The notes under the pieces are model-generated. The model was given only the letters and a program-made list of their open reading frames with translations. It did no database searches and had not been told where the DNA came from. The position numbers were made by a program, and so were the translations under genes. From assembly GCA_026991395.1 (NCBI GenBank), contig JALXBP010000105.1, forward strand, positions 1-46,383: a stretch of DNA of 46,383 nt, in the 5' to 3' direction. Below are positions 3,164 through 42,921 of the stretch, piece after piece (position 1 is the stretch's first letter; each line of letters starts with the position of its first letter). Source of the stretch: Anaerolineae bacterium (lineage in GTDB: Bacteria > Chloroflexota > Anaerolineae > B4-G1 > SLSP01).

Positions 3164-3167
3164 GACA

Positions 3168-4354: not shown

Positions 4355-5074
4355 ATGAGCGATGGGACGGGGATCACAGGGCATATTCTGCGCTGGGACA
4401 TCCTGGGCGGATTGCCGTTGCGCAGTGGGTCGGTGGATATGATCTTCACCGATCCGCCCTATGACCGTCAGGCATTGCCTTTGTACGGCGCAGTTGCGCG
4501 GGAGGCGGCGCGTCTGCTGCGTCCCGGTGGCTTCGTCGCCGTGATGGCCGGGCATCTCTACTTCGACGAGATCATCGGTCTTTTCAGCAGAGAGACCGAA
4601 CTGGCCTATCACTTCACCTTCGTGCTGGGACTGAGTGGCAGGTACGGGGGACTGGTGTGGCGCAGACGAATGCCGATTGCCATACGTACAAAGTTGGTCC
4701 TCGTCTATCGCCGTCGTGGGGGAGGTTGCCAGCGCACGGCTATGACTTCGCTCTACTGGGGCGACGGGGCGGACAAGGACTTTCACCCGTGGGGGCAGGA
4801 CGTGGACAGTCATCGGTACTACATCGACTGCCTGACGGCGCCGGGTGATCTGGTCGTCGATCCGCTGGCCGGTGGCGGGACAACGGCTGTGGCCTGCGAA
4901 CTGATCGGCCGCCGGTGGATCGTCGGGGACATCGACGAAGTTGCCGTTGAGACAATGCGCAAGCGGCTTGGCGGCATCATACCGCTTCATCGGCAAGAAC
5001 CCGAACAACTCACCCTGTGGAATGGGACACAGTCCTGGGGCATAGCCGAGCACGACACAGTCAGGAGGCCATAG
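4355..5074 (+). CDS. DNA amino-methyltransferase, beta-class order
   Basis: 239-residue N4-cytosine/N6-adenine DNA methyltransferase. The catalytic motif IFTDPPYD is at about 30-37 and precedes the AdoMet-binding motif VVDPLAGGGTTAVACELIGRRW at about 165-187, the order typical of beta-class enzymes. It is short, with no obvious target-recognition insert and no restriction endonuclease nearby, so it looks like a solitary methylase that marks or protects element DNA. It starts 2 bases after the initiator's stop and is followed directly by the next gene (stop 5074, ATG 5075), so all three are probably one operon. The target sequence cannot be read from the protein. Confidence 0.85.
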   Translation: MSDGTGITGHILRWDILGGLPLRSGSVDMIFTDPPYDRQALPLYGAVAREAARLLRPGGFVAVMAGHLYFDEIIGLFSRETELAYHFTFVLGLSGRYGGLVWRRRMPIAIRTKLVLVYRRRGGGCQRTAMTSLYWGDGADKDFHPWGQDVDSHRYYIDCLTAPGDLVVDPLAGGGTTAVACELIGRRWIVGDIDEVAVETMRKRLGGIIPLHRQEPEQLTLWNGTQSWGIAEHDTVRRP

Positions 5075-5557
5075 ATGAGCCACACTGCCCTTGTCAAATG
5101 GCTGGGCACGAAGAATGACTATGACGAGCGCTTCTGGGAGGCGCTGAAGACGTTGTATATCTACTGGGGTGCTATCGGGGCGACCTTTCCCCTCGATGTG
5201 CCTCGCAGCCGGTGGACGCTGGAACAGACCAAGACCTTCTCCACCTTCTGGCTGGGCCAGCTATGGCACGACGTTGCAAGGGACCTTGTCAAGGCTTGGG
5301 ACAAGGCATGGGCCGAGCTTGGGGCACGTGAGCGCAAAGCCCTGCGCCGCATCGCCTGTGATGGCGGCCACGTTGACCTGCTGCGCTCGAACCTCACGCC
5401 GTTGGCGGGCTTAGGGGCCTATACGCGGTCCGGCTACCTCGACCACGTCCTGACGGGCAACTTCGCCTACTACGTCTGCTTCTACGCAGGCAAGCCCGCA
5501 GAGGCGCGGTCACGGCTGGAAACGATGCTGGCCAGCAACGGATACAGAGTACAATGA
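5075..5557 (+). CDS. Unknown 160-residue protein
   Basis: It begins immediately after the methyltransferase stop, with AGGAGG 5 bases before the ATG, so it is certainly translated if the operon is. The sequence is Trp/Tyr-rich and mostly helical (WEALKTLYIYWGAIGATFP, DLVKAWDKAWAELGARERKALRRIAC), with no signal peptide or membrane helix and no motif I recognise. It is the last gene before the ATTGC-rich non-coding region. Confidence 0.7.
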   Translation: MSHTALVKWLGTKNDYDERFWEALKTLYIYWGAIGATFPLDVPRSRWTLEQTKTFSTFWLGQLWHDVARDLVKAWDKAWAELGARERKALRRIACDGGHVDLLRSNLTPLAGLGAYTRSGYLDHVLTGNFAYYVCFYAGKPAEARSRLETMLASNGYRVQ

Positions 5558-19580: not shown

Positions 19581-20942
19581 ATGGCAGGCAGAGTCTCTCC
19601 CTTTGCCGCCGCCGTGGGGGGCGCGGCGGTGAGTGCGATGGGCGATCCCTACGAGGACCTGCTGCGGCAGGCCAGGGAGCGGATGGTCCAGACCTTCAAC
19701 CCGGCACAGCTGCAGGACCCGGACCAGCAGGTGCTCGACCGGGCACGGCAGCTTTTAGGGCAGATGGTCGAAAGCTACACGCTCCATCTGCAGGAGAAGG
19801 GGATCACCGTCAGCGAGGATAGCGAGAGTCTCGTCGGGCGGCTCGTCGATGACATCTTCGGCTTCGGCCCCATTGCCCGCCTCCTGGCCACCGAGACGGT
19901 GGAGGAGATCATCATCAACGGGACGGAGGTCTGGGTCATCGATGCCGAGCGGGGCAAGTACAAGGCCGAGGTTAGTTTCCGCAGTCCGCAGGAGGTGGTC
20001 AACCTCGTCAACCGCGTGGCCATGCGCCAGAGGCGCCAGATCGACCCTTCGCGCCCGAAGGTCGATGCCCAGATGAGCGACGGGTCTCGTCTTAATGCTG
20101 TGATGAGCCCCATTGTCAACAACTACCCCATCGTCGTCACCATCCGCCGCCACCGTATGGTGGCCCGGCGGATGGAGGACCTGGTGCGCCTGGGGACACT
20201 GACGCAGCAGGCAGCGGACTTCCTCCGTGCCTGTATCTTAGGCAAGCTCAACATCGTCGTTGCAGGCGGTACGGGCACGGGCAAGACGAATACGCTCAAT
20301 GCCTTCCTCAATGCCGTGGCCGAGGACCCGGTGGCGAGGTTCGAGCGCGTCCTCGTCTTGGAGGATACGCCGGAGGTCGACATCTCCGGCCTCCCCGATG
20401 CCGTTCGCCTCGTGACCCGCGAGGCCAACGAGGAGGGGACGCGGGCCGTGACGATGGACGACCTGGTGCGCAACACATTACGCATGCGCCCGGACCGGAT
20501 CGTCACCGGCGAGGCACGCGGCGAGGAGATCATCAGCATCATCAACGCGGCCAACACCGGACACGACGGGCAGCTGCTCACCGTGCATGCCAACTCCGCC
20601 TTAGATGTGCCGGTGCGCATCGTCCAGATGGCGCAGCTGGCCCGCGATCTGCCCGAACGGGTCATCTTGGGGTGGTTTGCCGATGCCTTCGATCTGCTCG
20701 TCTTCCTGCGGCGTATCACCGTCGGGGAGAAGACTCTGCGCAAGGTCGTCCAGATCGCCGAAATCCCGCCCTCCCGCTTTATGGAGGGCGACAAGCTGCC
20801 CGTCAATCTCATCTTCGAGGACAAGGGGCGGGGGCTGCGCCACGTGCCGGGGGCCTTCCCCAGTCGCCTCGAGGAGCTGATCTACGTACGCTCCGGGCAC
20901 AAGGTCTCCCTGCAGCAGTATCTGATCGAGACAAGGAGGTGA
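19581..20942 (+). CDS. cpaF: CpaF/TadA secretion ATPase
   Basis: 453-residue hexameric type II/IV secretion ATPase that powers Tad pilus polymerisation. Walker A GGTGTGKTNT is near 229-238, followed by VLVLEDTPEVDI (Asp box), RIVTGEARGEEII (Walker B, near 305) and GHDGQLLTVHANS (His box, near 325). The N-terminal GFGPIARLLATETVEEIIINGTEVWV is the usual CpaF N-domain signature. The length is normal for the family and no key residue is missing. It abuts cpaE without a gap and is followed by tadB after 5 bases, with AAGGAGG inside its last codons. Confidence 0.95.
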   Translation: MAGRVSPFAAAVGGAAVSAMGDPYEDLLRQARERMVQTFNPAQLQDPDQQVLDRARQLLGQMVESYTLHLQEKGITVSEDSESLVGRLVDDIFGFGPIARLLATETVEEIIINGTEVWVIDAERGKYKAEVSFRSPQEVVNLVNRVAMRQRRQIDPSRPKVDAQMSDGSRLNAVMSPIVNNYPIVVTIRRHRMVARRMEDLVRLGTLTQQAADFLRACILGKLNIVVAGGTGTGKTNTLNAFLNAVAEDPVARFERVLVLEDTPEVDISGLPDAVRLVTREANEEGTRAVTMDDLVRNTLRMRPDRIVTGEARGEEIISIINAANTGHDGQLLTVHANSALDVPVRIVQMAQLARDLPERVILGWFADAFDLLVFLRRITVGEKTLRKVVQIAEIPPSRFMEGDKLPVNLIFEDKGRGLRHVPGAFPSRLEELIYVRSGHKVSLQQYLIETRR

Positions 20943-20947
20943 AGCCG

Positions 20948-21823
20948 ATGGTCCTTCCCTTTGCCTTTGCTCTGGTGCTCATCGGGGCGGGTATCGCCTG
21001 GTCGGGCGCGGTGCGCCACGACGTGCGCCTGCAGCGCCGCACGATGCGCCCCTCGATGCCGGAGCGCCTGGATGCCTACCTCGAAGCCCACGATGTCCCC
21101 CTCTCGGGGGCGGAGTTCCTGCGCACCGGCCTCATCGTCGGGATGGTGCTGGCGGTCCTGCTCACGGTGCTCCTGGGGCCGACGATCCTCACCTTCGTCG
21201 CCGTCCCCTTGGGGGTGCTGGCCTACTGGTCGTACCTTGGTGCACAGGCGGAGAAGTTCGAACTGGAGTATCTGCAGGCGCTGGTGGCAATGGTCGGCAG
21301 TCTCCAGCGGGCTTATACTGCCAGCCCCAACCTCCGCGCCGCCCTGATGGAGATCGTCCCCTATGTGCCTGCAGTGGTGCAGGAGGACTTGAAGCAGATC
21401 GTGGCGGCCATCAATACGGGCACACCGCTGCAGGAGGCGCTGGAAGCCTGGGTGGAGCGGCGGCGGGGCAACCCCTACGTGGGGCAGATCGTCGAGGCGC
21501 TGACCCTGCGCGAATCGCACGGCGGCAGCCTCAAGGCCGTCCTGGACGGCCTCGATGAGCTGATGCGCGGCCTGCTCGATATCCGGCGCGAAATTGAGGC
21601 CAAGCAGAGCGCCCCGCGCACGGAAGGGTTAATCGTCGCCGTGGCCCCCTTCGTCTTCCTCATCGGTGTGAAGCTGATGGCCGATTACGAGGGCGGCTTC
21701 TACCACACGCTGGCCGGGCAGGCGGTCCTGGCCGTCGTCCTCGTCCTGAGCAGTGCCTCCTGGTGGCTCAGTCGGCGCATCGCCGCGTCGGGAATACGGA
21801 TCACCGCGTGGGAGGTGGAATGA
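20948..21823 (+). CDS. tadB: TadB-like pilus platform protein
   Basis: 291-residue inner-membrane platform protein (GspF/T2SSF domain). There are membrane helices at the N-terminus (LPFAFALVLIGAGIAW), near 60-95 (GLIVGMVLAVLLTVLLGPTILTFVAVPLGVLAYW) and two at the end. The cytoplasmic core has ALVAMVGSLQRAYTASPNLRAALMEIV and LTLRESHGGSLKAVLDGLDELM, the two-helix motif of TadB. The ATG at 20948 is preceded by AAGGAGG. Its stop overlaps the next gene's ATG. Confidence 0.88.
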   Translation: MVLPFAFALVLIGAGIAWSGAVRHDVRLQRRTMRPSMPERLDAYLEAHDVPLSGAEFLRTGLIVGMVLAVLLTVLLGPTILTFVAVPLGVLAYWSYLGAQAEKFELEYLQALVAMVGSLQRAYTASPNLRAALMEIVPYVPAVVQEDLKQIVAAINTGTPLQEALEAWVERRRGNPYVGQIVEALTLRESHGGSLKAVLDGLDELMRGLLDIRREIEAKQSAPRTEGLIVAVAPFVFLIGVKLMADYEGGFYHTLAGQAVLAVVLVLSSASWWLSRRIAASGIRITAWEVE

Positions 21824-22816: not shown

Positions 22817-23104
22817 GTGAACGAGAAGGCTTTGCGGAAGTACCTGGAGCTTAAGCTGGGATTGCAGGAAGCGCTGGAGGCTCATCCGCGCATTCGCGAC
22901 TTCCTGCGCCGTGAGGTGCGGCTCCTGCGCGGCGATGCGACGGCTCTGGCTCGCGAGGAGGGGCAGGGGATGCTCGAATACATCATCATCCTGGCCGGTG
23001 TCCTGCTTGTCGCCGCGGCGGTGATCGTCCTCTACAACAGGATCAAGAGCAAGTACGAGGATGCCGGAAACGCTGTGCAGGGTATCCAGATCGAGGCACC
23101 GTGA
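22817..23104 (+). CDS. flp: Flp-type pilin
   Basis: 95 residues from a GTG at 22817, chosen because GGAGG lies 8 bases upstream; an in-frame start at 22736-22739 sits too close to its own AGGAGG. A helical charged leader of about 50 residues precedes REEGQGMLEYIIILAGVLLVAAAVIVLY, the prepilin motif with Glu five residues into the mature helix, then IKSKYEDAGNAV. The leader before the cleavage site is longer than in most Flp pilins, which might be an extra domain or processing signal. No prepilin peptidase gene is in the window, so a host enzyme must cleave it. Confidence 0.85.
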   Translation: MNEKALRKYLELKLGLQEALEAHPRIRDFLRREVRLLRGDATALAREEGQGMLEYIIILAGVLLVAAAVIVLYNRIKSKYEDAGNAVQGIQIEAP

Positions 23105-23171
23105 TGCCCCCTGCGGCAGGGTGCCTCGCCGGAGGTGCCCTGCCGCCTTCCCCCAATGCGGAGGTGGCAAG

Positions 23172-23585
23172 GTGAAAGCCAAAGACGTACTGCACAACGA
23201 GGAGGGACAGGCCTTCGTCGAGATGCTCATCGTGATGCCGCTCTTCCTCTTCCTCACGGGGGCCATCCTCGGCTTAGGGTGGCTCTTGTGGACGCACTTA
23301 GGGCAGATGGCCTACGCCCAGGAGGCGGCGGCCTACGCGGGCAAGGCCGGGGATACGGCCTTCGGGCAGGTGGTGGCCTCCCGCTTCGAGGCCGTCTCCA
23401 ACGTCGATTTCGGGCAGGAGACGACGGTCTTTTTCTTACCGCCTGCACGGGGTGTGTGGGCGCAGGCGGAGTACGAAGGTCCGGCACTGCTGCTGCCGAG
23501 CGGCTTCGAGCGGGAGATCAAGGCCGGGGCCTTCTTCCGCCGCGAGGATTTCTACGGCGGGCCTCCGCAGGGGCCGTTCGAGTAG
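23172..23585 (+). CDS. TadE-like minor pilin
   Basis: 137 residues from GTG 23172 (after GAGGTGGCAA). NEEGQAFVEMLIVMPLFLFLTGAILGLGWLLW near 10-40 is a TadE/TadF-type prepilin segment with the conserved Glu. The remainder is a small extracytoplasmic domain with aromatic and Gly-rich stretches. It is one of three consecutive pseudopilin-like genes, probably minor pilins priming Flp assembly. Confidence 0.75.
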   Translation: MKAKDVLHNEEGQAFVEMLIVMPLFLFLTGAILGLGWLLWTHLGQMAYAQEAAAYAGKAGDTAFGQVVASRFEAVSNVDFGQETTVFFLPPARGVWAQAEYEGPALLLPSGFEREIKAGAFFRREDFYGGPPQGPFE

Positions 23586-33167: not shown

Positions 33168-33800
33168 ATGAAAACGTTTGACGAGTTCATTCCGGAAAGG
33201 TCAGCTTACAGCGACCTGGAGATCGTCCACGTTGTCGTAAAATTCTCGGTTGAGGACGATGAACCGGAGGTTTACGTCACCGAGGACGATTGGGGGATCA
33301 CAGGAACCCCCGCCGAGGAGTACTATGGCTATGTTAACACGCTCTACAGCTGGCCGGAACTGGATGAAGATGGCAAGTGGGATGAGTTAGAGCTTCCTGA
33401 AAAGAAGGCCCTGTATAAGCTGATCAAGTCGAAGAAATTCCAAAAGCTCTTCCGCGAAGCGGTGGAGGAGGAATACGTCTGTCGACTCGACCCCTATCGC
33501 GGTCATACTTTCTGCGGCTTCCGCCGTGAGAAGGACGGTGGAACCCCGAAGTTTGACCGGCTGGTCGAAATGCTATCCAATGTCCCGACCATACATTGGG
33601 AGGGCATTTGGAGCGCTGAGGATTGGCTTCAGTGGGTGGGGCCAGAGGACGTTGGCGTTACAGCCCAAACCCCTGAGAAGAAGCTCGAAGAGATCGCCAA
33701 TGAGATTCGGCTGGATGCGGCCCGTTCTGGGTACGCAATTGATGGGGACATTGAAGCCGTTCTTCGCCGCTGGCGCAACGAGCTAAGATCCGAAGACTAA
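33168..33800 (+). CDS. Unknown acidic protein, paralogue of the next gene
   Basis: 210 residues from ATG 33168 after AAGGAGG. Very acidic. It shares with 33944-34585 the order of YxW (LYSWPELDEDGKW), EPE/PEKKALYKLIKSKKFQKLFREAVEEEYVC, GGTPKFDRLVEMLSNVPT, and a C-terminal helix (EIANEIRLDAARSGYAIDGDIEAVLRRWRNE). No known domain or catalytic motif; no export signal. High acidity and small size could suit a DNA-mimic or a regulator of host enzymes, but that is speculation. The leader contains a TCCGCCC-CTGC-GGGCGGA hairpin (33119-33136) and a CCTCC (33117-33121) that could mask the ribosome-binding site. Confidence 0.7.
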   Translation: MKTFDEFIPERSAYSDLEIVHVVVKFSVEDDEPEVYVTEDDWGITGTPAEEYYGYVNTLYSWPELDEDGKWDELELPEKKALYKLIKSKKFQKLFREAVEEEYVCRLDPYRGHTFCGFRREKDGGTPKFDRLVEMLSNVPTIHWEGIWSAEDWLQWVGPEDVGVTAQTPEKKLEEIANEIRLDAARSGYAIDGDIEAVLRRWRNELRSED

Positions 33801-33852: not shown

Positions 33853-33874
33853 GCTAACAATGACCCCTTCCCCT

Positions 33875-33933
33875 GGAGAAGACCTCCGTCGTCTCCTTCT
33901 AGGGAGATGCCGGGGTCTCCTCCGCCAAGGAGG
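33875..33933 (+). promoter_or_regulatory. Pseudoknot-like leader with anti-SD, before the 33944 gene
   Basis: Hairpin GGAGA/TCTCC (33875-33879/33892-33896); loop GACCTC (33881-33886) pairs with GGGGTC (33912-33917, one G-U). CCTCC at 33919-33923 then faces the ribosome-binding GGAGG at 33929-33933 across a 5-base loop, a direct SD-masking hairpin. First of six similar leaders. Confidence 0.55.
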
Positions 33934-33943
33934 TGCTATTGCA

Positions 33944-34585
33944 ATGAACGTTCTAAGCCTGACGATTGATGATCGTATCGATGAAGACGACGAAGACGAC
34001 TGCGTTCCACTGCTGCGATCGCCTCAAAATGACACCATCACCGTAACGCAGGTGAAGTTCTTCGTCGATTTCAACGGGGACAACGGAAATGTGAGCGTGC
34101 GGGTGAATTCCTATGCCCCAGGGGACGGGATTACTCCAGTCTACGGTCGGGAGCAGAGTCTGTACGAGTGGCCACCAGACGAGGACGACTATCTGGAGTA
34201 CCCCGAACCCATAGCCCTGTATAACACACTCAAGTCAAAGGAGTTCAGGCTCCTCTTCGAAGCTGCGCTTAAGGAGGAGTTTGAATGCCACTTTGACCAT
34301 ACAACGGCTCAATGGGTCTGCGCCTGGCGCAAAGGTGCTACACCCAAGCTCAACAAAGTCGTTGAGGCGCTTGCCGATGTCCCCACCAGGGTCTTTGAGG
34401 TGATACAGGCCGAGGACTGGTACCAAGACTGTTATCCTCCGGACCCTGATTGTATCGATCTCAACGCCAATGCGACGCACGAGGAGCTAAGCGATCTCGC
34501 CAAGATCATTTACGAGGAAGCCCTCAATGACGGATATGTCATCGAGGGACTGTACGACTTCCTCGAAAAGTGGCGCGACGGGTAG
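33944..34585 (+). CDS. Unknown acidic protein, paralogue of the previous gene
   Basis: 213 residues from ATG 33944 (AAGGAGG 10 bases upstream; the longer frame from 33830 runs through the leader structure). The N-terminus has an Asp-rich run (DDRIDEDDEDD). The shared core is LYEWPPDEDDYLEYPEPIALYNTLKSKEFRLLFEAALKEEFECHF, GATPKLNKVVEALADVPTRVFEVIQAEDWYQ and a C-terminal EEALNDGYVIEGLYDFLEKWRDG, aligned with 33168-33800. A tandem duplication with divergence; function unknown. The separate RNA leader suggests its dose is controlled independently of its paralogue. Confidence 0.7.
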   Translation: MNVLSLTIDDRIDEDDEDDCVPLLRSPQNDTITVTQVKFFVDFNGDNGNVSVRVNSYAPGDGITPVYGREQSLYEWPPDEDDYLEYPEPIALYNTLKSKEFRLLFEAALKEEFECHFDHTTAQWVCAWRKGATPKLNKVVEALADVPTRVFEVIQAEDWYQDCYPPDPDCIDLNANATHEELSDLAKIIYEEALNDGYVIEGLYDFLEKWRDG

Positions 34586-34625
34586 CCATGGAAAGTGAGG
34601 CAAAAGCGGGGCCAAGCCCCGTATC

Positions 34626-34769
34626 ATGTCCAAGTCCGTCCTGCGGCGCTTGCGGGCGCAAATCCCGGAAAAGGATCAACCCGCCTTCCTCGCGCTGCTT
34701 CTCAGCGCGGAAGTGCTGAAGAAGGCGGCGGAGATCGCGGAACAAGTCCAGCGCCGGCAGGACAAGTAA
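34626..34769 (+). CDS. Possible 47-residue helical protein
   Basis: ATG 34626 to TAA 34767-34769. The product starts MSKSVLRRLRAQIPEKD, then FLALLLSAEVLKKAAEIAEQVQRRQDK: a plausible amphipathic or coiled-coil pair. A GGGGC-CAA-GCCCC hairpin lies just upstream where a ribosome-binding site should be, and no good GGAGG is visible, which lowers confidence. A second short frame from 34588 (Cys/Ser-rich) overlaps it and looks less protein-like. Confidence 0.4.
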   Translation: MSKSVLRRLRAQIPEKDQPAFLALLLSAEVLKKAAEIAEQVQRRQDK

Positions 34770-34791
34770 CCCTGTCAGTCCAATGTCCCCG

Positions 34792-34859
34792 GGGAGGTGC
34801 CGCGTCGCCTCCCTGGGAGCGCGACGTGGGCCTTCCTCCAAGAAAATTCGAAGAGGAGG
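34792..34859 (+). promoter_or_regulatory. Pseudoknot-like leader with anti-SD, before the 34866 gene
   Basis: Hairpin GGGAGG/CCTCCC (34792-34797/34808-34813); loop CGTCG (34803-34807) pairs with CGACG (34822-34826), 8-base connector. CCTCC follows at 34835-34839, and the ribosome-binding GGAGG is at 34855-34859. Confidence 0.6.
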
Positions 34860-34865
34860 TGCCCA

Positions 34866-35072
34866 ATGACCACAATGACCAAGACAACGACCGCGCTCGA
34901 TGCGCTTGATGCGATCGAGCAGGCTCGCAAGATGCTCGTCGAGATGGAGGCGGAGAGATACCGCTTTCTTGAGGAAGAGCGTCAATGGGCCAGCTCGATG
35001 GCCATTAAGACCTTCAAGCGCTGGATCGACTCCATGTTCCCCCCGACCGGCACCGTCGTGGTAGCCTGGTAG
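34866..35072 (+). CDS. Small coiled-coil protein, 68 residues
   Basis: ATG 34866, 6 bases after GAGGAGG. After a Thr/Met-rich start, ALDAIEQARKMLVEMEAERYRFLEEERQWASSMAIKTFKRWIDSMF is a strongly heptad-patterned helix, ending PPTGTVVVAW. Probably an oligomeric accessory factor. It stands alone between two pseudoknot-like leaders, which supports it being a real, separately regulated gene. No family recognised. Confidence 0.6.
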   Translation: MTTMTKTTTALDALDAIEQARKMLVEMEAERYRFLEEERQWASSMAIKTFKRWIDSMFPPTGTVVVAW

Positions 35073-35094
35073 GGGGCGATGACCCAACTACGTT

Positions 35095-35209
35095 CGTTCC
35101 CCACAGGGAGGCGCTCCGTCGTCTCCCCGCGTGGGGAACGATGGAGGTGCCTCCTTGTGGGTTTTGATCCCTTTCGCAGGAACAAAACCTAACAAAACAA
35201 ACAAGGAGG
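35095..35209 (+). promoter_or_regulatory. Pseudoknot-like leader with A/C-rich tail, before the 35218 gene
   Basis: Outer stem CGTTCCCCAC/GTGGGGAACG (35095-35104/35131-35140), inner stem GGGAG/CTCCC (35106-35110/35123-35127). Loop CTCCGT (35114-35119) pairs with ATGGAG (35141-35146, one G-U). CCTCC is at 35150-35154. A 30-base A/C-rich unstructured stretch (about 35179-35204) leads into GGAGG at 35205-35209. Layout recalls the phage T4 gene 32 operator. Confidence 0.6.
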
Positions 35210-35217
35210 TAAGTATC

Positions 35218-36021
35218 ATGTCTATCGACACTGTTGTGGCAAGCAATCCGGATGCGTTCAAGGGGAATGGGCGCGGTGAGCGCCTTTACCCCTTCGTCCA
35301 GTTCACTGGCAAGGGGTTCTTCATGCCCCGCGACGAGGTCGCGCTTCTCGCCCAGAAGATGGGCAAGGATGAGGAGCGCATCGAGCAGGCCCTGCTTACG
35401 GCCGGGTTCCATCCGGCGCAGATCGAGCTGGGAAGCAACACAGTGAATGGCCTGCTGGCCGAGGCCGTGGAGATCGTCCCGCTGCGCTACCGCACCATCT
35501 GGCGGTTTGGAGATCAGATTATCTCCAAGTATCGGAAGGGTGCCCGCAGCAAGCGGCAGCTCGCTGTGTTTATCCGCGTTGGCGAGAACCGCTTCGTCGG
35601 CCCGGTGATGATCACGACCTCCGGTAAAGCCGCGAGCGAACTTTATCAGGCGCTTCAAAGCCACCGCGAGACGGTCAAGGAACTCCCTGAGATCAAGCGT
35701 GCCTTGGCCAAGGGGGCAAGCCTGGATAAAGTAGCTGCGACCTACACGCTGCTGCTCATCAAGGGTAAGCGGACGCGGACCAAGTACGGCTCTGTGCGCA
35801 CCGCACTGGCCTGGGAGGTGTCCCCTCATTACGTGGGGGATAAGTTCGCAAACATCATTGCGGACAAGTACTACCCCCAGGCTGAGGAGTGGTCGACGCA
35901 GCGACGCCAGGCCAACGAGGCCCAGGCCGACGAGGCCCAGGCCCCGGAGCCGGAACCCGAACCGGAGCCGCAGGCCCCGCCCGAACCCGAGCCGGTGCCT
36001 GACGATGACTTCCCCTTCTAA
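35218..36021 (+). CDS. Protein with an SSB-type acidic C-terminal tip
   Basis: 267 residues from ATG 35218 after AAGGAGG. The last residues are DDDFPF, after a Pro/Glu linker (PEPEPEPEPQAPPEPEPVP): exactly the disordered-linker-plus-tip pattern by which bacterial SSB recruits repair and replication proteins. The globular N-terminal ~215 residues do not look like a classical SSB OB fold: YPFVQFTGKGFFMPRDEVALLAQKMG, VPLRYRTIWRFGDQIISKYRKGARSKRQLAVFIRVGENRFVGPVMITTSGKAASELYQAL. The basic YRKGARSKRQ patch could bind nucleic acid. I infer an alternative ssDNA-binding protein, or one that competes for SSB partners. Its leader suggests autoregulation. Confidence 0.7.
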   Translation: MSIDTVVASNPDAFKGNGRGERLYPFVQFTGKGFFMPRDEVALLAQKMGKDEERIEQALLTAGFHPAQIELGSNTVNGLLAEAVEIVPLRYRTIWRFGDQIISKYRKGARSKRQLAVFIRVGENRFVGPVMITTSGKAASELYQALQSHRETVKELPEIKRALAKGASLDKVAATYTLLLIKGKRTRTKYGSVRTALAWEVSPHYVGDKFANIIADKYYPQAEEWSTQRRQANEAQADEAQAPEPEPEPEPQAPPEPEPVPDDDFPF

Positions 36022-36032
36022 GGAGGAAGACA

Positions 36033-36323
36033 ATGCGCCGCACCAAGGTTCGCCGCTGGGTACCGCGCCGCCGCAAGGCGGTGCCCCAGCGCCGCAATGA
36101 CCGCAATGACCACCGTATTCGCCGCCGCGTGATCGCCGTGATCGCGCAATGGGGGGACGTTGCCGGGCAGTTCGCCGTCCGGCACACCTCCCTGGTACTG
36201 CCCCTGTTTATGACGGGAGTAACCCTCCTCGTTATGGCAGGGCGGTACGTGGCGGCGGCCACGGTGGGGGCCATCACTTTCGGTCTGCTTCTGGCTGCAA
36301 GCCTGAAGCTGACCGAGAGTTAG
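36033..36323 (+). CDS. Small basic membrane protein
   Basis: 96 residues; ATG 36033 after AAGGAGG, 11 bases after the previous stop, so the two are co-transcribed. The first 35 residues are extremely Arg-rich (RRTKVRRWVPRRRKAVPQRRNDRNDHRIRRR), followed by one or two membrane helices (LVLPLFMTGVTLLVMAGRYVAAATVGAITFGLLLAASL). The pattern predicts a cytoplasmic nucleic-acid-binding tail tethered to the membrane. No family recognised. Confidence 0.55.
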   Translation: MRRTKVRRWVPRRRKAVPQRRNDRNDHRIRRRVIAVIAQWGDVAGQFAVRHTSLVLPLFMTGVTLLVMAGRYVAAATVGAITFGLLLAASLKLTES

Positions 36324-36338
36324 GTTCCCCGCGATTAC

Positions 36339-36367
36339 AAAGAGGGCTGACCCTGTCAGCCCTCTTT
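36339..36367 (+). terminator. Perfect 13-bp intrinsic terminator
   Basis: AAAGAGGGCTGAC (36339-36351), 3-base loop, GTCAGCCCTCTTT (36355-36367). It shares the AAAGAGGGC/GCCCTCTTT base with the terminal stems of structured RNAs 1 and 2. Confidence 0.8.
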
Positions 36368-36383
36368 CCCTATGTACCAAAGA

Positions 36384-36449
36384 CCGAGGAGGCCGTGCCC
36401 GCGCCTCCTCGGCGATGAGCACGGCCTCCGAAATGAAACAAAAAGGAGG
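36384..36449 (+). promoter_or_regulatory. Pseudoknot-like leader with anti-SD, before the 36456 gene
   Basis: Hairpin CCGAGGAGG/CCTCCTCGG (36384-36392/36404-36412); loop CCGTGC (36393-36398) pairs perfectly with GCACGG (36419-36424). CCTCC at 36425-36429 is followed by an A-rich stretch and GGAGG at 36445-36449. This is the cleanest example of the family. Confidence 0.65.
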
Positions 36450-36455
36450 CTTGCA

Positions 36456-36728
36456 ATGACAACTATCGATGCCCTGCTCGACCAGGAGCAGGAGGAGCAG
36501 TGTTCGGCCACCAACTGCGCCGAATGGCGCTATGAGTATGTGGCCTTTGACAGTGTTGGTAATCCCGTGTGGGGACGTACCTGTGCCGAGTGTTTCCGTA
36601 ACTGGGTCGAGGTGCTGGCCATTCAGCGCAGGCACCTATTCGAGAACCCAGAGGAAGCCGACCTCTGGCCTCGCTGTGTCCCCATTCCGCCGCGTCCTGC
36701 CTGGGAGGTCTTCGATGAAGACGATTGA
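36456..36728 (+). CDS. Small zinc-ribbon-like protein
   Basis: 90 residues from ATG 36456. CSATNCAEWRYEYVAFDSVGNPVWGRTCAECF (about 15-46) has two Cys pairs, CxxxxC and CxxC, separated by a strand-rich segment, consistent with a single zinc site. The C-terminus is Pro- and Asp-rich (PRPAWEVFDEDD). The next gene starts inside its last codons. It may be a nucleic-acid-binding or adaptor protein; function unknown. Confidence 0.6.
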   Translation: MTTIDALLDQEQEEQCSATNCAEWRYEYVAFDSVGNPVWGRTCAECFRNWVEVLAIQRRHLFENPEEADLWPRCVPIPPRPAWEVFDEDD

Positions 36729-37365
36729 CCTCAATCCGGGTTTTCGCGTGGTCAGCGTCTCCGTCCAGGAACCAACCTGGACGGAGATGGAGCGGATCAA
36801 CGAGGAACGCATTCGGCGGGGCGTCCAGCCGCTGGATCGCGTTCTCTGGCTCGTCCTGAAAGGCCCTGAGCCACAGTGGTGGCTTCCCAGCGAAGCGGGA
36901 CTGCTGGCTCCGCGCTTCACACTAACGGCCTTTCAGGTGACAGAGATCGATGAGCGGGGAAACATCGGCCTTGAACCCGGAGGTTTTCCCCGCTACCACA
37001 CGCTGGAGGTTACCGCCGAGTATCAGGGCGACAACTATTCCCTGCCGCCCGTTCCGGTGGAACTGCCCGGCAAAGGGGCCTTCATCGGCCTGCTGCGCTG
37101 GGCAGGCGGCGAGGACGAGGCCGCGCCGCCCTGGTTAGACAGGGAAGCGCAGCTGTGGATCGATGTCGGAGGGCAGCCATACCCCCTGGAGCGTAACCGC
37201 CAAACGGAGCAGTGGCTGACCCTGGAACTGGACGCGCTCATCCGGGCACTGCCCGACCGCGAGCGCGAACGGAAGCTCCCCCTTGTCCCCCTCCAGGGCC
37301 ACCTGGTCGATGAGGAGACAGGGGAGATCGTCGATGTGCGGGCACCTGCGCCCGCCCTTGTATGA
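36715..37365 (+). CDS. Unknown 216-residue protein
   Basis: Starts at ATG 36715, overlapping the zinc-ribbon gene by 14 bases, so they are translationally coupled and probably work together. Mostly beta-rich (FRVVSVSVQEPTW, RVLWLVLKGPEPQWWLP, FPRYHTLEVTAEYQGDNYSLPPVPVELPGKG), no export signal, and a C-terminal VDEETGEIVDVRAPAP tail; 'DxETGEI' is a motif often seen near the end of phage and plasmid ssDNA-handling proteins, but I would not build a function on it. Confidence 0.6.
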   Translation: MKTIDLNPGFRVVSVSVQEPTWTEMERINEERIRRGVQPLDRVLWLVLKGPEPQWWLPSEAGLLAPRFTLTAFQVTEIDERGNIGLEPGGFPRYHTLEVTAEYQGDNYSLPPVPVELPGKGAFIGLLRWAGGEDEAAPPWLDREAQLWIDVGGQPYPLERNRQTEQWLTLELDALIRALPDRERERKLPLVPLQGHLVDEETGEIVDVRAPAPALV

Positions 37366-37379
37366 CCCTATGGCCCCCG

Positions 37380-37455
37380 GGGGAGCGTCGCGGCTCCCCG
37401 CAAGGGGGCAGCGACGTTCCTCTTAGGGGATCAATCCAAGATCACCCAAAGGAGG
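37380..37455 (+). promoter_or_regulatory. Pseudoknot-like leader with anti-SD, before the 37462 gene
   Basis: Hairpin GGGGAGC/GCTCCCC (37380-37386/37393-37399); loop GTCGC (37387-37391) pairs with GCGAC (37411-37415), 11-base connector. TTCCTC (37417-37422) can mask GGAGG at 37451-37455. The leader at 38634 is a clear sequence relative, sharing the GTTCCTC and GGGGATCA segments. Confidence 0.65.
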
Positions 37456-37461
37456 AGAACG

Positions 37462-38622
37462 ATGAGACACATTGATATTGAAGCCGTTGTCGAGATACAA
37501 CGGCAAGAGGTTGTGGCGGTGTGGGGGTATAACGTCCGGGCATCCACCAATTCCCCCACTGCCTGGATAACAAGCTACTATGCCAACACGGAGATAGACA
37601 TAAATGCCGCGGATTTCATCGAAGAGATCAAGTATGCTGGCCTGCACAAAGCAACAACCCTCGGCCCATACAAGGCGGTGTTGATGACGGGCCTGTTGCC
37701 TGTCATCAAGGACAAAACCGTGGAGGTGTGGCGGTGGGAACCGCCGGACGACGCCGACAGAGACGAATGGAAAGGCCACTACCGGTTCAAAATCGAGAAC
37801 GGCAGGGCCAAGATCACCTTCGTCGTATCGCAGGCAGAGATGATCCTTGTAGATCGACTTCGGGGTAATCCCTCCAGAGAAATTCAACGCATTCTCGAAA
37901 AGGTTCTGGAGAAGAACCCCGAGCTGAAGCGCCGGGTGGATGACTATATGCGAAAAACAAATCTGTATCTCTCGATGTTTCCCGTGGGGTTCGTCCCCGT
38001 GAAGGGCGTAGAGATGCGTATAGCCAACGATCACGTCTCGGCCATCTGCAAGGGAGTAGCCTATGCCTTCAACGGAAGGGACTATCGCCTTGTCGTCCTC
38101 CAAGCTGTGGCCACCACCAAGGAGGCGCTGAGAAGCCTCTTCGGTACCCTGAACGGCCACGGAGGAGCGAAGAAGAAGAGGCTCCGCCTTTTCTTCACAG
38201 ATGGAGGAGACGCCAAGACGCTCTACCCGATGCAGGCCGCCTCGAGGCGGCGTTATCGCAGCACCTTTGTTCCCCTGCCCGACGGGACGGGGTGGCTGGC
38301 GACCTTCGTCCACGTAGCCGCCTTGCCTGCTGAGGGAGAAGAAGACGATGAGGGATGCGCCTACCTCCTCTTCGAGGAAGGATTGCCTCCAGAGGAAAAG
38401 CGGCGGCGCATCCTGCGCCTGCTCAATGCCCGCCTGCCTTTCCCCTTCCCCGAGGTCTGGGCCAATGCATCATTGCCCCAAGCCAGGCGGTTCTGGACGG
38501 AAGCAGATGTGAAGAGATTGATATCTCCGATAACCGTCAAGGGGAAAGGCTTTGATAGCAGTGTTAGCGTCCGCGTGGGAAACATCCACGCCTGGCGCGA
38601 GATCGTCGAACAAATGAATTAA
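37462..38622 (+). CDS. Unknown 386-residue protein
   Basis: ATG 37462 after GGAGGAGAAC. Soluble, mixed alpha/beta. Recognisable only as segments: FKIENGRAKITFVVSQAEMILVDRL, IQRILEKVLEKNPELKRRVDDYMRK (coiled coil near 150-175), VKGVEMRIANDHVSAICKGVAYAFNGRDYRLVVLQAVATTKEALRSLF and a basic KKKRLRLFF. No signal peptide, membrane helix or nucleotide-binding motif. Its leader is homologous to that of the downstream methyltransferase-helicase, so the two may be regulated together and act in one process. Confidence 0.7.
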   Translation: MRHIDIEAVVEIQRQEVVAVWGYNVRASTNSPTAWITSYYANTEIDINAADFIEEIKYAGLHKATTLGPYKAVLMTGLLPVIKDKTVEVWRWEPPDDADRDEWKGHYRFKIENGRAKITFVVSQAEMILVDRLRGNPSREIQRILEKVLEKNPELKRRVDDYMRKTNLYLSMFPVGFVPVKGVEMRIANDHVSAICKGVAYAFNGRDYRLVVLQAVATTKEALRSLFGTLNGHGGAKKKRLRLFFTDGGDAKTLYPMQAASRRRYRSTFVPLPDGTGWLATFVHVAALPAEGEEDDEGCAYLLFEEGLPPEEKRRRILRLLNARLPFPFPEVWANASLPQARRFWTEADVKRLISPITVKGKGFDSSVSVRVGNIHAWREIVEQMN

Positions 38623-38633
38623 CCAGGTTACCA

Positions 38634-38715
38634 CCCCAGGAGGAGCGACCGCGCTCCCCCTGGGGGAGATGGCGGCGTTCCTCCTTGGGGGATCACTCAA
38701 GATCACTCAAGGAGG
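38634..38715 (+). promoter_or_regulatory. Leader with anti-SD, before the methyltransferase-helicase gene
   Basis: Related in sequence to 37380-37455. Stem 38634-38647/38652-38665 (one A-C mismatch), or only its inner 6 bp GGAGCG/CGCTCC (38642-38647/38652-38657). Loop CCGC (38649-38652) can reach GCGG (38672-38675), a weaker pseudoknot than in the other leaders. CCTCC at 38680-38684; GATCACTCAA occurs twice in tandem (38691-38710); GGAGG at 38711-38715. Confidence 0.5.
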
Positions 38716-38721
38716 AAAGCA

Positions 38722-41700
38722 ATGAGACTTGCAGGATGGGAGAAAGTAGGCTTCTACCCCACGCCCGGCGTGGTGGTAGAGATGATTTCCCGGCGGCTTG
38801 TCCCGCCGGCGTCCGGACTGTGGCGGCTCCTCGACCCCTGCGCCGGGGAAGGGGAGGCTGCAGCACAATGCGCCGCCCTTGTCGGCGGTATGTCGGAGAC
38901 GTTGGGCGTTGAACTGAGCTACAGCCGCGCAGCTGTAGCCGCGCAGCGCCTGACGCAGGTCATCGAGGGGGCGTGGAAGTCGGTGCGCGTTAAGATGCGC
39001 TCCGTCTCCCTGCTCTGGCTCAACCCACCCTACGGGGCAGGGACGAACCAGGGCGAGCGCCTGGAGACGGAGTTCCTGCGCACGGCCCTGACGACGCTGG
39101 CCACCGGTGGTGTGCTGGTCTACATCGTCCCCCAGCACGTGCTGGGCGATGTGGATGTCGCCCGCCTCCTGGCCGGAAACTTCGAGGCGATGGATGTGCG
39201 CCGCTTCCCCGATGGGGAATTCGAGCGCTTCCGCCAGGTCGTTGTTCTGGCCCGACGCCGCGCCAAGTACCACCCGCCGACGAAGGAGGCGGTGCTGGCG
39301 CTGCGGGCACTGGCCGGGGCCGAACTGCCGCCGCTGACGGGCGCAGAGGGCCGCTACCGGCTGCCTGCCGTGCCGGAAGGCGAGGTGATGCGCCTCGTCG
39401 CACCCAGTGACAACCACCTGCTGCGCGAGGCACTCAAGGTCGGCTTGCCCCGTGAAGTTAAACAGAGCATCGTGCCCGAGGCAACGGTGGGCAAGGGATT
39501 TACCCCCATCGTGCCGCTCAAGAAGGGGCACGTGGCGATGCTCATCGCCTCCGGACTGATGGGCACACTGGAAATCACCACGCCCGACGGAACGATGCTC
39601 GTCAAGGGCCGGGTGGCCAAGGAGGAAGCGGTCGTTTCCTCGACAAGCGACGGGAAAAAGGACATCGTGGTCACGCGCGAAAGCTTCAAGACCACGATCT
39701 CCACGCTCTCCTCGAAGGGCTTGCAGGTCATCGATGAAGTCAAGGACCTGGAGGCCTTTATGCAGGAGCACGGCGAGGCCCTTGCCCGCGCCATCCTCGA
39801 CCAGCCTCCGCTCTACCGCAACGATCCGACGCGGGAGGAGTGGGCAACCGTCTCTGCCCTCGGCAAGGGGCGGCGTCCCTTACCCGGGCAAAAGGAGGCG
39901 GGGCTGCTGCCGGTGCAGAAGCACGCGGCCATCGCCCTGGCCCGTGCCCTGCGCAAGCGCAAGAAGGCCATCGTCCAGGGCGAGATGGGGCTGGGCAAGA
40001 CCACCATCGCCCTGGCTACGCTGGCCCTGCGCAAGAAGTGGCCTGCCGTCGTCATCTGCCCCCCGCACCTGGTCCCCAAGTGGATCAGGGAGGCCAGGGA
40101 GGTGCTGGGGGAAGAGGTCTACGCGGTAGAGCTAAAGCGCATCGCCGATGTGGAGGCCTTTGCCAAAGCTGTGGCCGTGCGCGGGCGCGACAAGCCCGCC
40201 ATCGCCGTTATGGCGGCCACCTCCGCCAAGTTAGGCGGCGGGTGGAAGGTGGGAGCAACGCGCCGACGCCACCACTACAAGGACGGCCAAGGCTATGCCC
40301 GCACGTTAGAGGTCGCCGCCTGCCCTCACTGCGGCTGGGACCCTACCCAGCCTCTGGAGGGGGTGGAGGAGGAGAAGCGCCTCCCCCTCGACTTCCTCGA
40401 AAAGAAGAAGTCCGGGCGGCGATGCCCCAAGTGCGGAACCGTGCTGACCGACTACGGGCAGGGCCGCTTCCGCCGCTGGCCGCTGGCCGACTACATCCGG
40501 CGGAAGCACAAGAATCTGTTCCGCGTCCTGGTGGCCGATGAGGTCCACCAGTTCAAGGGACAGGAGAGCGACCGCGCCTTAGCCTTCCACCATCTGGTGC
40601 GGGCAACGGAGGAGCAGCTTGCCCTGACGGGCACCTTCTTCGGGGGTCGGGCAACCTCCATCTTCTGGCTGCTCCACCGGCTAAACGTCGGCAGCGTTTC
40701 CCGCCGCTTCGCCTTCAACGATGTCGCTCGATGGGTCGGGCGCTACGGCCTGGTGGAGAGAAGAGAAGAAGTCTATCAGGACAAGGACGTGGGGCACTAC
40801 AGCGGACGCACCAAGGTGCGCACCCATACCCGCGAGGTGCCCGGCATCAGCCCGGCCATCATGGAACTGATGGCCGAGAACGTCCTCTTCCTGGCGCTCA
40901 AGGACTTAGGCGTCGCCCTGCCCGACTATGCCGAGGAGGTCGCCCTCCTCGAAATGAGCGAGGCGCAGGCGCGAAGCTACCGCCGTGTCCAGTCGGCACT
41001 GTGGGACCTGGCTTCGCAGGATCGATCCTATCTGTCGGCGTGGCTCCAGTGGAGCCTGGCCCGCCCCAACTCCGCCTTCCGCACCGAGAGGGTACGGGAA
41101 CTCAACAGCCGCGTTCTCCCTGCCGTCGTCAAAGGCAAGGAGCTACTCCCCAAGGAGCAGTGGCTCGTTGAGTTCTGCAAAGCAGAGGCGGCGAAGGGCC
41201 GGCGCGTCGTCGTCTTCCTCCGCCAGACGGGGACGCGGGACATCCAGCCTCGCATCGTCGAAGTCCTCCAGCGGGCGGGCCTGAAGGCTGGGCACCTGCC
41301 CGGCTCGGTCAACCCGCGCAAGCGCGAGGCGTGGCTCAAGGAGCACCCCTACCAGGTGCTCATCACCAACCCGCGCCTGGTCGAGACGGGCCTCGATCTC
41401 GTCGAATACGCCACCGTCGTCTTCTTCGAGATCGAGTACAGCCTCTACACCCTGTGGCAGGCAATGCGCAGAGTGTGGCGGCTGGGGCAAAAGCGCCCTG
41501 TGCGGGTCGTCTTCGCCGTCTACAAGGACACCATGGAGGAGCGGGCTATGCGCTTAATGGGCCAGAAGATGCGTGCAGCTCAGCTTCTCTACGGTGATGA
41601 GGTTGGCGGAGCCATCGTCCCCGAAGGCGGGGCCGACAGCTTCCTCACCGAACTGGCCCGTTCGGTGCTGGAGGATGCGGAACTGCCCGACCTCAAGGCC

Positions 41701-41895
41701 ATCTTCGGCGCTGCGGCGCAGGTGGCCACCGTCCAGGTCGAGGCCGAGCCGCAGGAGGACCAACGGCGTCCGTCGCTGGAAGAACTCCGGGCGGCAATGG
41801 CGGCAATGAAGCAGCAGCGCCCCAGGCGGCGCAAGCGCAAGGCCCGGCGGCAGCAGCCAGTGGCACAACAACTGCCGCTCTTTGGCTTTGCGTAG
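38722..41895 (+). CDS. DNA methyltransferase-SNF2 helicase fusion
   Basis: 1057 residues. N-terminal AdoMet-dependent methyltransferase: LLDPCAGEGEAA (motif I, near 37-48) and LLWLNPPYGAG (motif IV, near 98). A middle domain spans about 180-385. Then a superfamily 2 SNF2-type helicase: IVQGEMGLGKTTIAL (near 418), a CPHC...CPKC zinc insert (near 533-570), VLVADEVHQFKG (DEVH near 606), and C-terminal RecA domain VLITNPRLVETGLDLVEYATVVFFE ... MRRVWRLGQKRPVR (near 915). A Lys/Arg/Gln-rich tail closes it. Gamma-like motif order (I before IV). Methylase-helicase giants occur as phage anti-restriction proteins (for example DarB of P1) and in defence islands (DISARM-like). Here a role in modifying or protecting transferred DNA is plausible. 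Confidence 0.85.
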   Translation: MRLAGWEKVGFYPTPGVVVEMISRRLVPPASGLWRLLDPCAGEGEAAAQCAALVGGMSETLGVELSYSRAAVAAQRLTQVIEGAWKSVRVKMRSVSLLWLNPPYGAGTNQGERLETEFLRTALTTLATGGVLVYIVPQHVLGDVDVARLLAGNFEAMDVRRFPDGEFERFRQVVVLARRRAKYHPPTKEAVLALRALAGAELPPLTGAEGRYRLPAVPEGEVMRLVAPSDNHLLREALKVGLPREVKQSIVPEATVGKGFTPIVPLKKGHVAMLIASGLMGTLEITTPDGTMLVKGRVAKEEAVVSSTSDGKKDIVVTRESFKTTISTLSSKGLQVIDEVKDLEAFMQEHGEALARAILDQPPLYRNDPTREEWATVSALGKGRRPLPGQKEAGLLPVQKHAAIALARALRKRKKAIVQGEMGLGKTTIALATLALRKKWPAVVICPPHLVPKWIREAREVLGEEVYAVELKRIADVEAFAKAVAVRGRDKPAIAVMAATSAKLGGGWKVGATRRRHHYKDGQGYARTLEVAACPHCGWDPTQPLEGVEEEKRLPLDFLEKKKSGRRCPKCGTVLTDYGQGRFRRWPLADYIRRKHKNLFRVLVADEVHQFKGQESDRALAFHHLVRATEEQLALTGTFFGGRATSIFWLLHRLNVGSVSRRFAFNDVARWVGRYGLVERREEVYQDKDVGHYSGRTKVRTHTREVPGISPAIMELMAENVLFLALKDLGVALPDYAEEVALLEMSEAQARSYRRVQSALWDLASQDRSYLSAWLQWSLARPNSAFRTERVRELNSRVLPAVVKGKELLPKEQWLVEFCKAEAAKGRRVVVFLRQTGTRDIQPRIVEVLQRAGLKAGHLPGSVNPRKREAWLKEHPYQVLITNPRLVETGLDLVEYATVVFFEIEYSLYTLWQAMRRVWRLGQKRPVRVVFAVYKDTMEERAMRLMGQKMRAAQLLYGDEVGGAIVPEGGADSFLTELARSVLEDAELPDLKAIFGAAAQVATVQVEAEPQEDQRRPSLEELRAAMAAMKQQRPRRRKRKARRQQPVAQQLPLFGFA

Positions 41896-42105: not shown

Positions 42106-42921
42106 TTGAAGCATATATCCCCACGCACCCAAGAACTCTATCAAAAAGCCTTGCGCCGCTTCGAAACCTGGTACTGGCGGCGCTATGACACCGCCCCCGA
42201 CTACGCCCTCCTCACCGAAGAGGAGGTGCGCGAGTACCTTGCCGCCCTGCGAGAAGAGGGTCTCTCGGCCAGTACGCGCAACCTGCTTCTCTCCGCCCTG
42301 AAATGGGCTGTGCGCCAGGAGAATAACCGCCTGGAGGTGCCGATGGAGAAGGCCGTGCTGCCTCCCATTGAAACGCTCACCGCCCGTGATCTGGGGCGAC
42401 TCGTCCGTGCTGCCCTCCAAGCTCAGCCGGAATGGGTCGGCTTGCGCAATGAGGCCATCATTGCCCTGCTGGCCCGCGCAGGCCTGCGCCTGGAAGAACT
42501 CACTGAGCTCAAGATGAGCGATATTACCCTCCGTCCGCGCTCTGGCTCTGTCCTGGTGCGCAAAGGCAAGGGGAACAAACAGCGACAGGTGCCGCTCTCC
42601 GCCGAAACACGCCGCGCCTTGCGGAACTATCTCCTCCGTCGTCCCCCTGTGGAAACCGATGCCCTCTTCATTTCCAGCTGGAAACGTCCTCTGAGTCGCC
42701 GCACCGTTCAGGCGATGATCGCCAATGCGGCGAAGAAGGCGGGGATTGAGCACAGGGTTTCGCCGCACATTCTGCGTCACACCTTCGCCACCCGTCTGAA
42801 TGAAAAAGGTACAGACCTGGTTTCAATCCAAAAGTTGCTGGGGCATAGCAGTGTGGCGACCACGCAGCGCTACCTGCACCCCAACCGGCGACAAATACAG
42901 GAGATGGTGGAAGAGCTGTAG
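42106..42921 (+). CDS. Tyrosine recombinase, XerC/D-like
   Basis: 271 residues from a TTG start at 42106 (GGGAGGT 7 bases upstream; no nearer ATG). N-terminal SAM-like core-binding domain (SPRTQELYQKALRRFETWYWRRY ... STRNLLLSALKWAVRQ). The catalytic domain has ARAGLRLEEL (Arg, near 125), GKGNKQRQVPL (Lys), HILRHTFATRL (His-x-x-Arg, near 221), LGHSSVATTQRYLH (His near 246 and Tyr nucleophile near 256). Length and order are those of Xer proteins and small integrases. With the adjacent dif-like repeat it most likely resolves plasmid dimers, or integrates the element at a dif-like host site. Confidence 0.92.
   Translation: MKHISPRTQELYQKALRRFETWYWRRYDTAPDYALLTEEEVREYLAALREEGLSASTRNLLLSALKWAVRQENNRLEVPMEKAVLPPIETLTARDLGRLVRAALQAQPEWVGLRNEAIIALLARAGLRLEELTELKMSDITLRPRSGSVLVRKGKGNKQRQVPLSAETRRALRNYLLRRPPVETDALFISSWKRPLSRRTVQAMIANAAKKAGIEHRVSPHILRHTFATRLNEKGTDLVSIQKLLGHSSVATTQRYLHPNRRQIQEMVEEL

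Follow-up and report, generated by a model that had tools for sequence, protein, structure and literature searches.

Five to six gene starts along one run of mobile-element genes in an Anaerolineae bacterium are preceded by leaders that share one pairing plan; the plan recurs with other sequences in relatives, which suggests a family of RNA on/off switches not described before. The leaders lie on the plus strand of contig JALXBP010000105.1 (assembly GCA_026991395.1), of which the whole stretch of 46,383 nucleotides was analysed and is called the window below; each leader is named by the first position of the gene behind it. Within a leader, segment 1 comprises the 5' strand and apical loop of a hairpin, segment 2 the 3' strand of that hairpin, segment 3 the complement of the loop together with CCTCC, and segment 4 the Shine-Dalgarno (SD) sequence with a few flanking bases. 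Element 3 pairs lengthwise with element 1 and also with the SD and its adjoining bases, and the plan is one of three mutually exclusive helices, 1:2, 1:3 and 3:4, exclusive wherever a segment is shared. We consider it probable (roughly 0.68) that the leaders are cis-acting bistable translational mRNA switches, in which 1:2 together with 3:4 would form the OFF state and 1:3 the ON state. At the level of sequence this reading is grounded in the three private helices, in the recurrence of the plan with unrelated sequence before non-homologous genes, and in covariation; from the SD we infer that translation would be the controlled step, and likewise the order of events proposed below.

The initial annotation of this region had described six leaders, each a hairpin with a loop pseudoknot followed by an anti-SD and an SD, and had suggested that one trans-acting factor reads their common shape. 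Its six gene starts, six loop pairings and CCTCC-like/GGAGG pairs are all in place, and the GGAGG strand of the hairpin does compete with the SD for the same CCTCC, as it proposed. What it missed is that the loop complement and the anti-SD are a single element. The 1:3 helix runs unbroken through the boundary of stem and loop in 20 of the 26 non-redundant leaders used for the later tests and is interrupted there in the other 6, and in 15 of the 26 the gapless pairing amounts to at least 9 bp. Since the loop pairing extends into the 5' strand of the stem, forming it in full would displace the hairpin, and the fixed shape of the earlier proposal is not supported as it was put; the loop pseudoknot is more likely a toehold or intermediate, the nucleus of the longer 1:3 helix. 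An H-type pseudoknot of static form would hold stem 1 and the loop helix together across a connecting loop, which was not found in the 20 leaders with an unbroken helix and could fit the 6 interrupted at the boundary. An unbroken 1:3 helix is a requirement of strand exchange and is hard to reconcile with such a pseudoknot. A single trans-acting factor that recognises the RNA by shape may still act on the leaders.

Every leader has private sequences, and by eye the non-orthologous ones have in common only the GGAGG/CCTCC-type cores and the pairing plan itself. There is one arrangement per gene start, and the leaders are intercistronic: a preceding frame was found for 25 of 26 and ends 5-103 nt upstream.

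Leaders in the window

Leaders were scored by the sum of the best 1:2, 1:3 and 3:4 helices ahead of each SD-preceded start, and the scorer was run without reference to the earlier finding. It replaced an initial duplex-energy scorer that was too permissive through internal loops; an initial scanner that required a strict loop helix had found few leaders beyond the closest relatives, and the leaders of orthologues then revealed the 1:3 plan. Among the 67 SD-preceded starts of the window the top five were, in order, 38722, 35218, 34866, 36456 and 37462, each scoring above all 200 of its own shuffles. Leader 38722 (38634..38720) has element 1 with the loop at 38634-38651, element 2 at 38652-38665, element 3 at 38673-38690 and its SD element at 38708-38720, with helices 1:2, 1:3 and 3:4 of 13, 17 and 12 bp and a score of 97.5 against a shuffle maximum of 63. 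In leader 35218 (35097..35211) the corresponding elements are at 35097-35119, 35120-35138, 35141-35161 (followed by TTTTG) and 35202-35211, the helices measure 16, 20 and 10 bp, and the score is 95.5 against 57.5. Leader 34866 (34784..34865) is divided into 34784-34807, 34808-34821, 34822-34837 (the anti-SD reaching 34839) and 34853-34865, with helices of 13, 16 and 12 bp (84.5 against 64), and leader 36456 (36384..36454) into 36384-36402, 36403-36412, 36419-36429 and 36445-36454, with helices of 10, 11 and 10 bp (80 against 58.5). For leader 37462 (37371..37461) the elements are 37371-37392, 37393-37409, 37411-37433 and 37453-37461, and the helices of 14, 20 and 9 bp score 78 against 67.5. 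Helix lengths in these five strong leaders thus range over 10-16 bp for 1:2, 11-20 bp for 1:3 and 9-12 bp for 3:4.

The repeated architecture described earlier therefore stands for five leaders, and the remaining one, 33944, is a weaker case. It occupies 33869..33934, with element 1 and loop at 33869-33891, element 2 at 33892-33907, element 3 at 33911-33924 and the SD element at 33928-33934, and its score of 57 lies inside its own shuffle range (maximum 64); the loop pairing GACCTC/GGGGTC is present, and it is a probable member of the set. At two places, 33860-33946 and 36372-36458, the frame of the downstream gene is open across the whole leader from an upstream ATG, and an extended protein is formally possible there. 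One further start, 23172, reached 77.5 (23101-23175) and was left out, as the leader there overlaps a coding region and has a different arrangement of the loop; it may be a chance match.

RNAfold z-scores of the leaders range from -3.5 to -6.5. A scan of 33860-38730 for a hairpin, a loop complement, an anti-SD and an SD returned 6 matches, where 150 dinucleotide shuffles averaged 0.14. In 400 kb of background from the same genome, 2 of 474 starts scored at least 78, both of them in GC-rich sequence and with many gaps in their helices, and a scan with a stricter cut gave 25 matches in 400 kb of other contigs (both strands) against 4 in the 5-kb region (one strand), where most of the 25 look like gapped matches in coding regions. 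When the six loops were compared with their own 3' flanks, only 1 other of the 720 possible assignments equalled or beat the true one, which bears out the earlier claim that loop complementarity is kept while the sequence changes.

Private complementarity and covariation

If each leader pairs only with itself, exchanging elements among leaders should destroy the pairing, and this was the case among the 26 leaders for 1:2 (z 10.8), 1:3 (z 14.3) and 3:4 (z 7.2), with no effect for 2:4 (z -0.1) and 2:3 (z 1.4). When leaders were picked on 1:2 and 1:3 only, 3:4 still stood out at z 6.8-7.1 (0/20000), and in 15 chromosomal look-alikes the private complementarity of 3:4 was z 1.9. With the hairpin picked by stem strength alone, loops at the element loci fitted their own 3' flank over swapped flanks (z 4.0-4.7), and the same test in other contigs of the same genome gave z -0.2 to 0.9.

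Covariation in homologues, the check that had been proposed with R-scape, was instead examined with permutation and shuffle controls, and it was found for both 1:3 and 3:4. The orthologous leaders of the helicase gene owe their conservation to common descent; among them, covariation is seen between bases beyond the SD core and bases before CTCC (3/20000), and all four Watson-Crick types occur at the first position of the 3:4 extension. The 1:3 helix is paired in 92.2% of cells in these orthologues, against 50-62% when the strands are slid, with two compensated pairs; the loop-flank test within the orthologues alone was weak (340/20000). Juxtapositions in the helices comprise 68 G.T against 19 A.C, and 44 against 5 cells in alignment A3, an excess in line with a sense-strand RNA, although the scorer delimiting the elements itself prefers G.T.

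Relatives and genetic setting

Relatives of the protein encoded behind leader 38722 occur in 26 of 60 related genomes and at 74 sites in named genomes, almost all of them Chloroflexota, with a few viral contigs in addition. Carriers include Anaerolineae such as Leptolinea, Levilinea, Longilinea, Ornatilinea and Flexilinea, and a Thermoflexia metagenome-assembled genome (MAG); the relative genomes are mostly MAGs, and they were gathered through this one DUF6094-SNF2 gene, a route by which leaders in other contexts may be missed. At the relative loci, 39 of 1180 ATG starts scored at least 72, against 1 after shuffling, and 3 doubtful ones among the 39 (L029:5919, L032:14634 and L035:4122) were dropped from later tests. 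In one leader, L029:2354, both a 1:3 helix of 18 bp and a 3:4 helix of 11 bp are unbroken. The genes behind the leaders encode DUF6094-SNF2 proteins, RadC, the DNA polymerase III beta clamp (DnaN), a DUF3307 protein and several proteins of no known function; since the plan recurs before such varied genes, it is something that non-homologous genes have in common.

A covariance model, R1, trained on orthologous helicase leaders only and searched against 396 genomes, found five places, three of them leaders already in the study (two in G024, one in G014) and the others in G383 and G171, of which the G383 match is a leader with a 16-bp 1:3 helix ahead of a DUF6094 protein. In the window's own 2.46-Mb genome R1 returned two weak matches only at E<=5, one of which, 37372-37464, is leader 37462. 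No convincing leader set was seen on non-Chloroflexota plasmids with helicase relatives (Thermus, Oceanithermus, Thermoanaerobacterium, Alicyclobacillus and Aliivibrio, lightly sampled). On the Oceanithermus profundus plasmid pOCEPR01 (L142, ~5313-5430, minus strand) a start follows three copies of an inverted pair (GCGCCGGGAAAGG / CCTTTCCCGGCG / CCTTTCCCGGCGC / GGCGCCGGGAAGGAGG), an arrangement with the same 1:2, 1:3 and 3:4 logic outside Chloroflexota and with little loop pairing. In the MAG S1bins155, many intergenic regions are filled from stop to SD with short repeats of the AACTCGC/CAATC type and the CTGATAGC type (L031 ~13900-14500 and 4900-5100; L032 4799, 9564 and 14634).

The window contig has the look of a mobile element, with a tyrosine recombinase just 3' of the helicase gene (42106-42921; Phage_integrase, 1.6e-43), T2SSE/T2SSF-type ATPase and membrane genes (19581-21820) and a DnaA_N-domain protein (2910-4352), and the setting of the leaders is a module of DNA-metabolism genes on that element. 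The gene behind the sixth leader (38722..41895, plus strand) encodes a 1057-aa fusion of a DUF6094 methyltransferase-like part with an SNF2/DEAD helicase (Pfam DUF6094 6e-33, SNF2 5e-9, Helicase_C 5e-8). The other leader-borne genes, within 33944..38622 on the plus strand, start at 33944 (213 aa), 34866 (68 aa), 35218 (267 aa), 36456 (90 aa) and 37462 (386 aa), and those tested among them had no match in Pfam/NCBIfam. No leader was found at genes 36033 and 36715 within the same run. The segments 33168-33797 and 33944-34582 encode adjoining paralogous acidic proteins of about 210 aa with 37% identity and no Pfam/NCBIfam match; gene 33168 has no arrangement of the three-helix kind, which leaves 33944 as the only one of the pair with a leader, the weak one.

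Modelled states and rival explanations

In the models, opening the SD cost a median of 10.9 kcal/mol with 1:2 enforced and 2.2 kcal/mol with 1:3 enforced, and it was cheaper with 1:3 in all 26 leaders; the 1:2+3:4 and 1:3 states were at most 6 kcal/mol apart in 18 of the 26. Since the SD is costly to open with 1:2 and cheap with 1:3, and the states are close in energy, 1:2+3:4 would be the sealed fold and 1:3 the open one, which agrees with the ON/OFF switch of the initial annotation on modelled grounds. In the sequence of events that we propose, the 1:2 hairpin would form first as the RNA emerges, and segment 3 would then invade through the exposed loop, with the loop pseudoknot as toehold, to give 1:3 with the SD free (ON); in the alternative fold, 1:2 and 3:4 would seal the SD (OFF). 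By eye no conserved unpaired bases were found among non-orthologous leaders, and because neither sequence nor unpaired bases are conserved across them, a common small-molecule aptamer seems unlikely. The energies also allow a self-timing version, which we regard as tentative and on the whole improbable: before SD synthesis 1:3 is predicted to be favoured in 26/26 leaders (median -12 kcal/mol), and with the SD included the median is -1.2 kcal/mol and the order reverses to the sealed 1:2+3:4 in 12/26, such that nascent RNA would pass from 1:2 to 1:3 and be sealed once the SD emerges, leaving the message open briefly after synthesis. If that were true, the DNA-metabolism genes would be expressed briefly with no ligand or protein needed, and the sequence-private copies would prevent cross-talk along one polycistronic RNA.

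Several points weigh against a bistable translational switch. The scorer that set the element boundaries rewards these very helices, which makes the swap, G.T and energy tests partly circular; less so are the selection blind to 3:4, the choice of hairpins by stem alone, the 3:4 covariation in orthologues and the covariance-model searches. The energies come from models of nested structures, calculated without ligands, proteins or ribosomes. The main clade of orthologues has lost the 3:4 extension, and its 1:2 core is nearly invariant and yields no covariation. In orthologues with a U-run, moreover, 1:3 would be a terminator (OFF), the opposite sign to the translational model. Of 55 leaders examined, 27, mostly helicase orthologues, have such a U-rich tract (at least 6 T of 8) directly 3' of element 3; it is absent from the window leaders, except for TTTT at 35218, and from many relatives, and leaders with a U-run have a weaker 3:4 (Spearman -0.42, without correction for relatedness). 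Riboswitches come with two expression platforms, and the U-run leaders may represent the switch in transcriptional form. In a sister clade (L047, L048, L053, L059, L063, L067 and others) a simple terminator-like hairpin (GATCCCCCATGCC..GGTGTGGGGGATTTTATTTT) is conserved within the operon, 20-60 nt upstream of the helicase gene and in the same place as the leader.

These U-runs, with the weaker 3:4 that goes with them and the plain terminator-like hairpin that occupies the leader's position at this gene in the sister clade, would be explained if the leaders were intergenic attenuators, with 1:3 an intrinsic terminator, 1:2 its antiterminator, operon genes guarded from spurious read-through and SD masking a secondary matter. 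We consider this unlikely, if the least so among the rivals, since U-runs are missing from the window leaders and from many relatives, and a pure terminator does not need a 3:4 helix that is privately complementary and covarying. A static H-type pseudoknot, in which the hairpin persists with its loop paired to the 3' flank and a single protein encoded by the element reads the shape of all leaders, draws on the loop-flank complementarity that is significant alone with the hairpin chosen blind, on the absence of conserved sequence, which suits recognition of shape, and on the several genes under one plan, which suit a regulon. It would, however, need a crossing loop of 0 nt at the boundary of stem and loop wherever pairing into the hairpin's 5' strand is gapless, and leaves unexplained the outer complementarity 3' of the anti-SD (e.g. 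CCCACA/TGTGGG at 35218); we hold it to be decidedly unlikely.

The geometry of the leaders is the same as that of IncI repZ, and they could in principle be targets of cis-encoded antisense RNAs that bind the 1:2 loop and block its pairing with segment 3, the private loops giving each leader an antisense partner of its own; five or six genes in a row would, however, require equally many antisense genes, and the proposal seems quite improbable to us. Still less credible is a role at the level of DNA, as structured single-stranded DNA in transfer or replication (as suggested for STAXI) or as single-stranded promoters. The leaders do lie ahead of DNA-handling genes on a mobile element (RadC, the DnaN clamp, DUF6094-SNF2), but element 4 is an SD at a fixed distance from the ATG and engaged in private 3:4 pairing, and the G.T excess on the sense strand would be unexpected from a DNA function, subject to the scoring caveat given above. 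As for chance, a GC-rich base composition, or plain SD-masking hairpins that do not switch, some GC-rich coding regions do score high with gapped helices; the contrasts of 39 with 1 after shuffling and of 6 with 0.14 in the region scan, the permutation tests and the blind covariance-model matches tell against such an origin, to which we give almost no weight.

Known systems and significance

The view that the leaders belong to no named class is upheld by Rfam 15, in which neither the window nor seven relative loci had a match at the gathering score; below threshold there were weak matches only, the best to gyrA at 20.3 bits against the 45 required. The closest likenesses are to single-gene systems. 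In repZ of the IncI-alpha plasmid ColIb-P9, as in repA of IncB and IncL/M plasmids, the loop of an upstream hairpin pairs with the SD-masking sequence beside the hairpin, which turns translation on; the system is plasmid-borne and serves one replication gene, its stem stays in place, and an antisense RNA and the translated repY frame drive the switch. Asano and Mizobuchi are said to have found in 1998 that formation of the repZ pseudoknot competes with antisense binding at the loop. References on the repZ switch, theirs included, are cited in PMC10724649. Our leaders resemble repZ in that a hairpin loop pairs with an SD-masking neighbour segment, and in being carried on a mobile element as repZ is on plasmids; they differ in that their pairing spans the whole stem, which persists in repZ, in serving many non-homologous genes, and in having no counterpart of repY, as no SD-preceded upstream frame into segment 1 is conserved (6 of 26 leaders have one).

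The timP mRNA of the TimPR type I toxin-antitoxin system has exclusive folds, in which pairing of SL1 with SL3 over 7 covarying bp is needed for translation and the other structure hides the ribosome-binding site, with the small RNA TimR as regulator of this single enterobacterial gene (PMC11228461). The exclusive conformations are alike, as is the pairing of a 5' hairpin with the segment that masks the ribosome-binding site so as to permit translation, whereas the leaders described here form a sequence-private set in an operon of a Chloroflexota element. With both repZ and timP they have in common a 5' hairpin loop complementary to the SD-masking segment, together with covariation.

Likenesses to the remaining systems are looser. 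In ermC, ermB and the amino-acid attenuators, four segments respond to ribosome stalling in a leader peptide through a 2:3 antisequester; competing helices, one of them masking a downstream SD, are found there as here, but the competing helix of our leaders is 1:3. Leader-peptide attenuation was considered and rejected, as the small SD-preceded frames that enter segment 1 in those 6 leaders vary in frame and length. STAXI (Weinberg et al. 2010) is a repeated pseudoknot-type structure near genes for SSB, topoisomerase, antirestriction and integrase proteins, whose role as RNA or DNA is debated (PMC2864571); the gene neighbourhood and the repeated pseudoknot-type structure are shared, but STAXI has 2-3 tandem copies and UUCG loops, and the present leaders have a single copy per gene that ends in the SD, with no UUCG signature. 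In conjugation operons, internal terminators between genes limit spurious expression and are overridden by a modified polymerase (PMC8955417); these too are hairpins between genes of a mobile-element operon, but plain terminators, to which the private SD pairing seen here would add a translational lock.

The known bistable leaders each serve one gene and have their own effectors, and here one plan with private sequences stands ahead of many different genes of one mobile-element module and across a bacterial class. Such a leader would be a portable regulatory part, copied by plan and not by sequence and invisible to searches with sequence profiles, which hints that other families conserved in this manner are overlooked. 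The leaders are short and self-contained, which makes the switch directly testable with reporters, and through it these elements may hold their replication and repair genes silent until they are needed.

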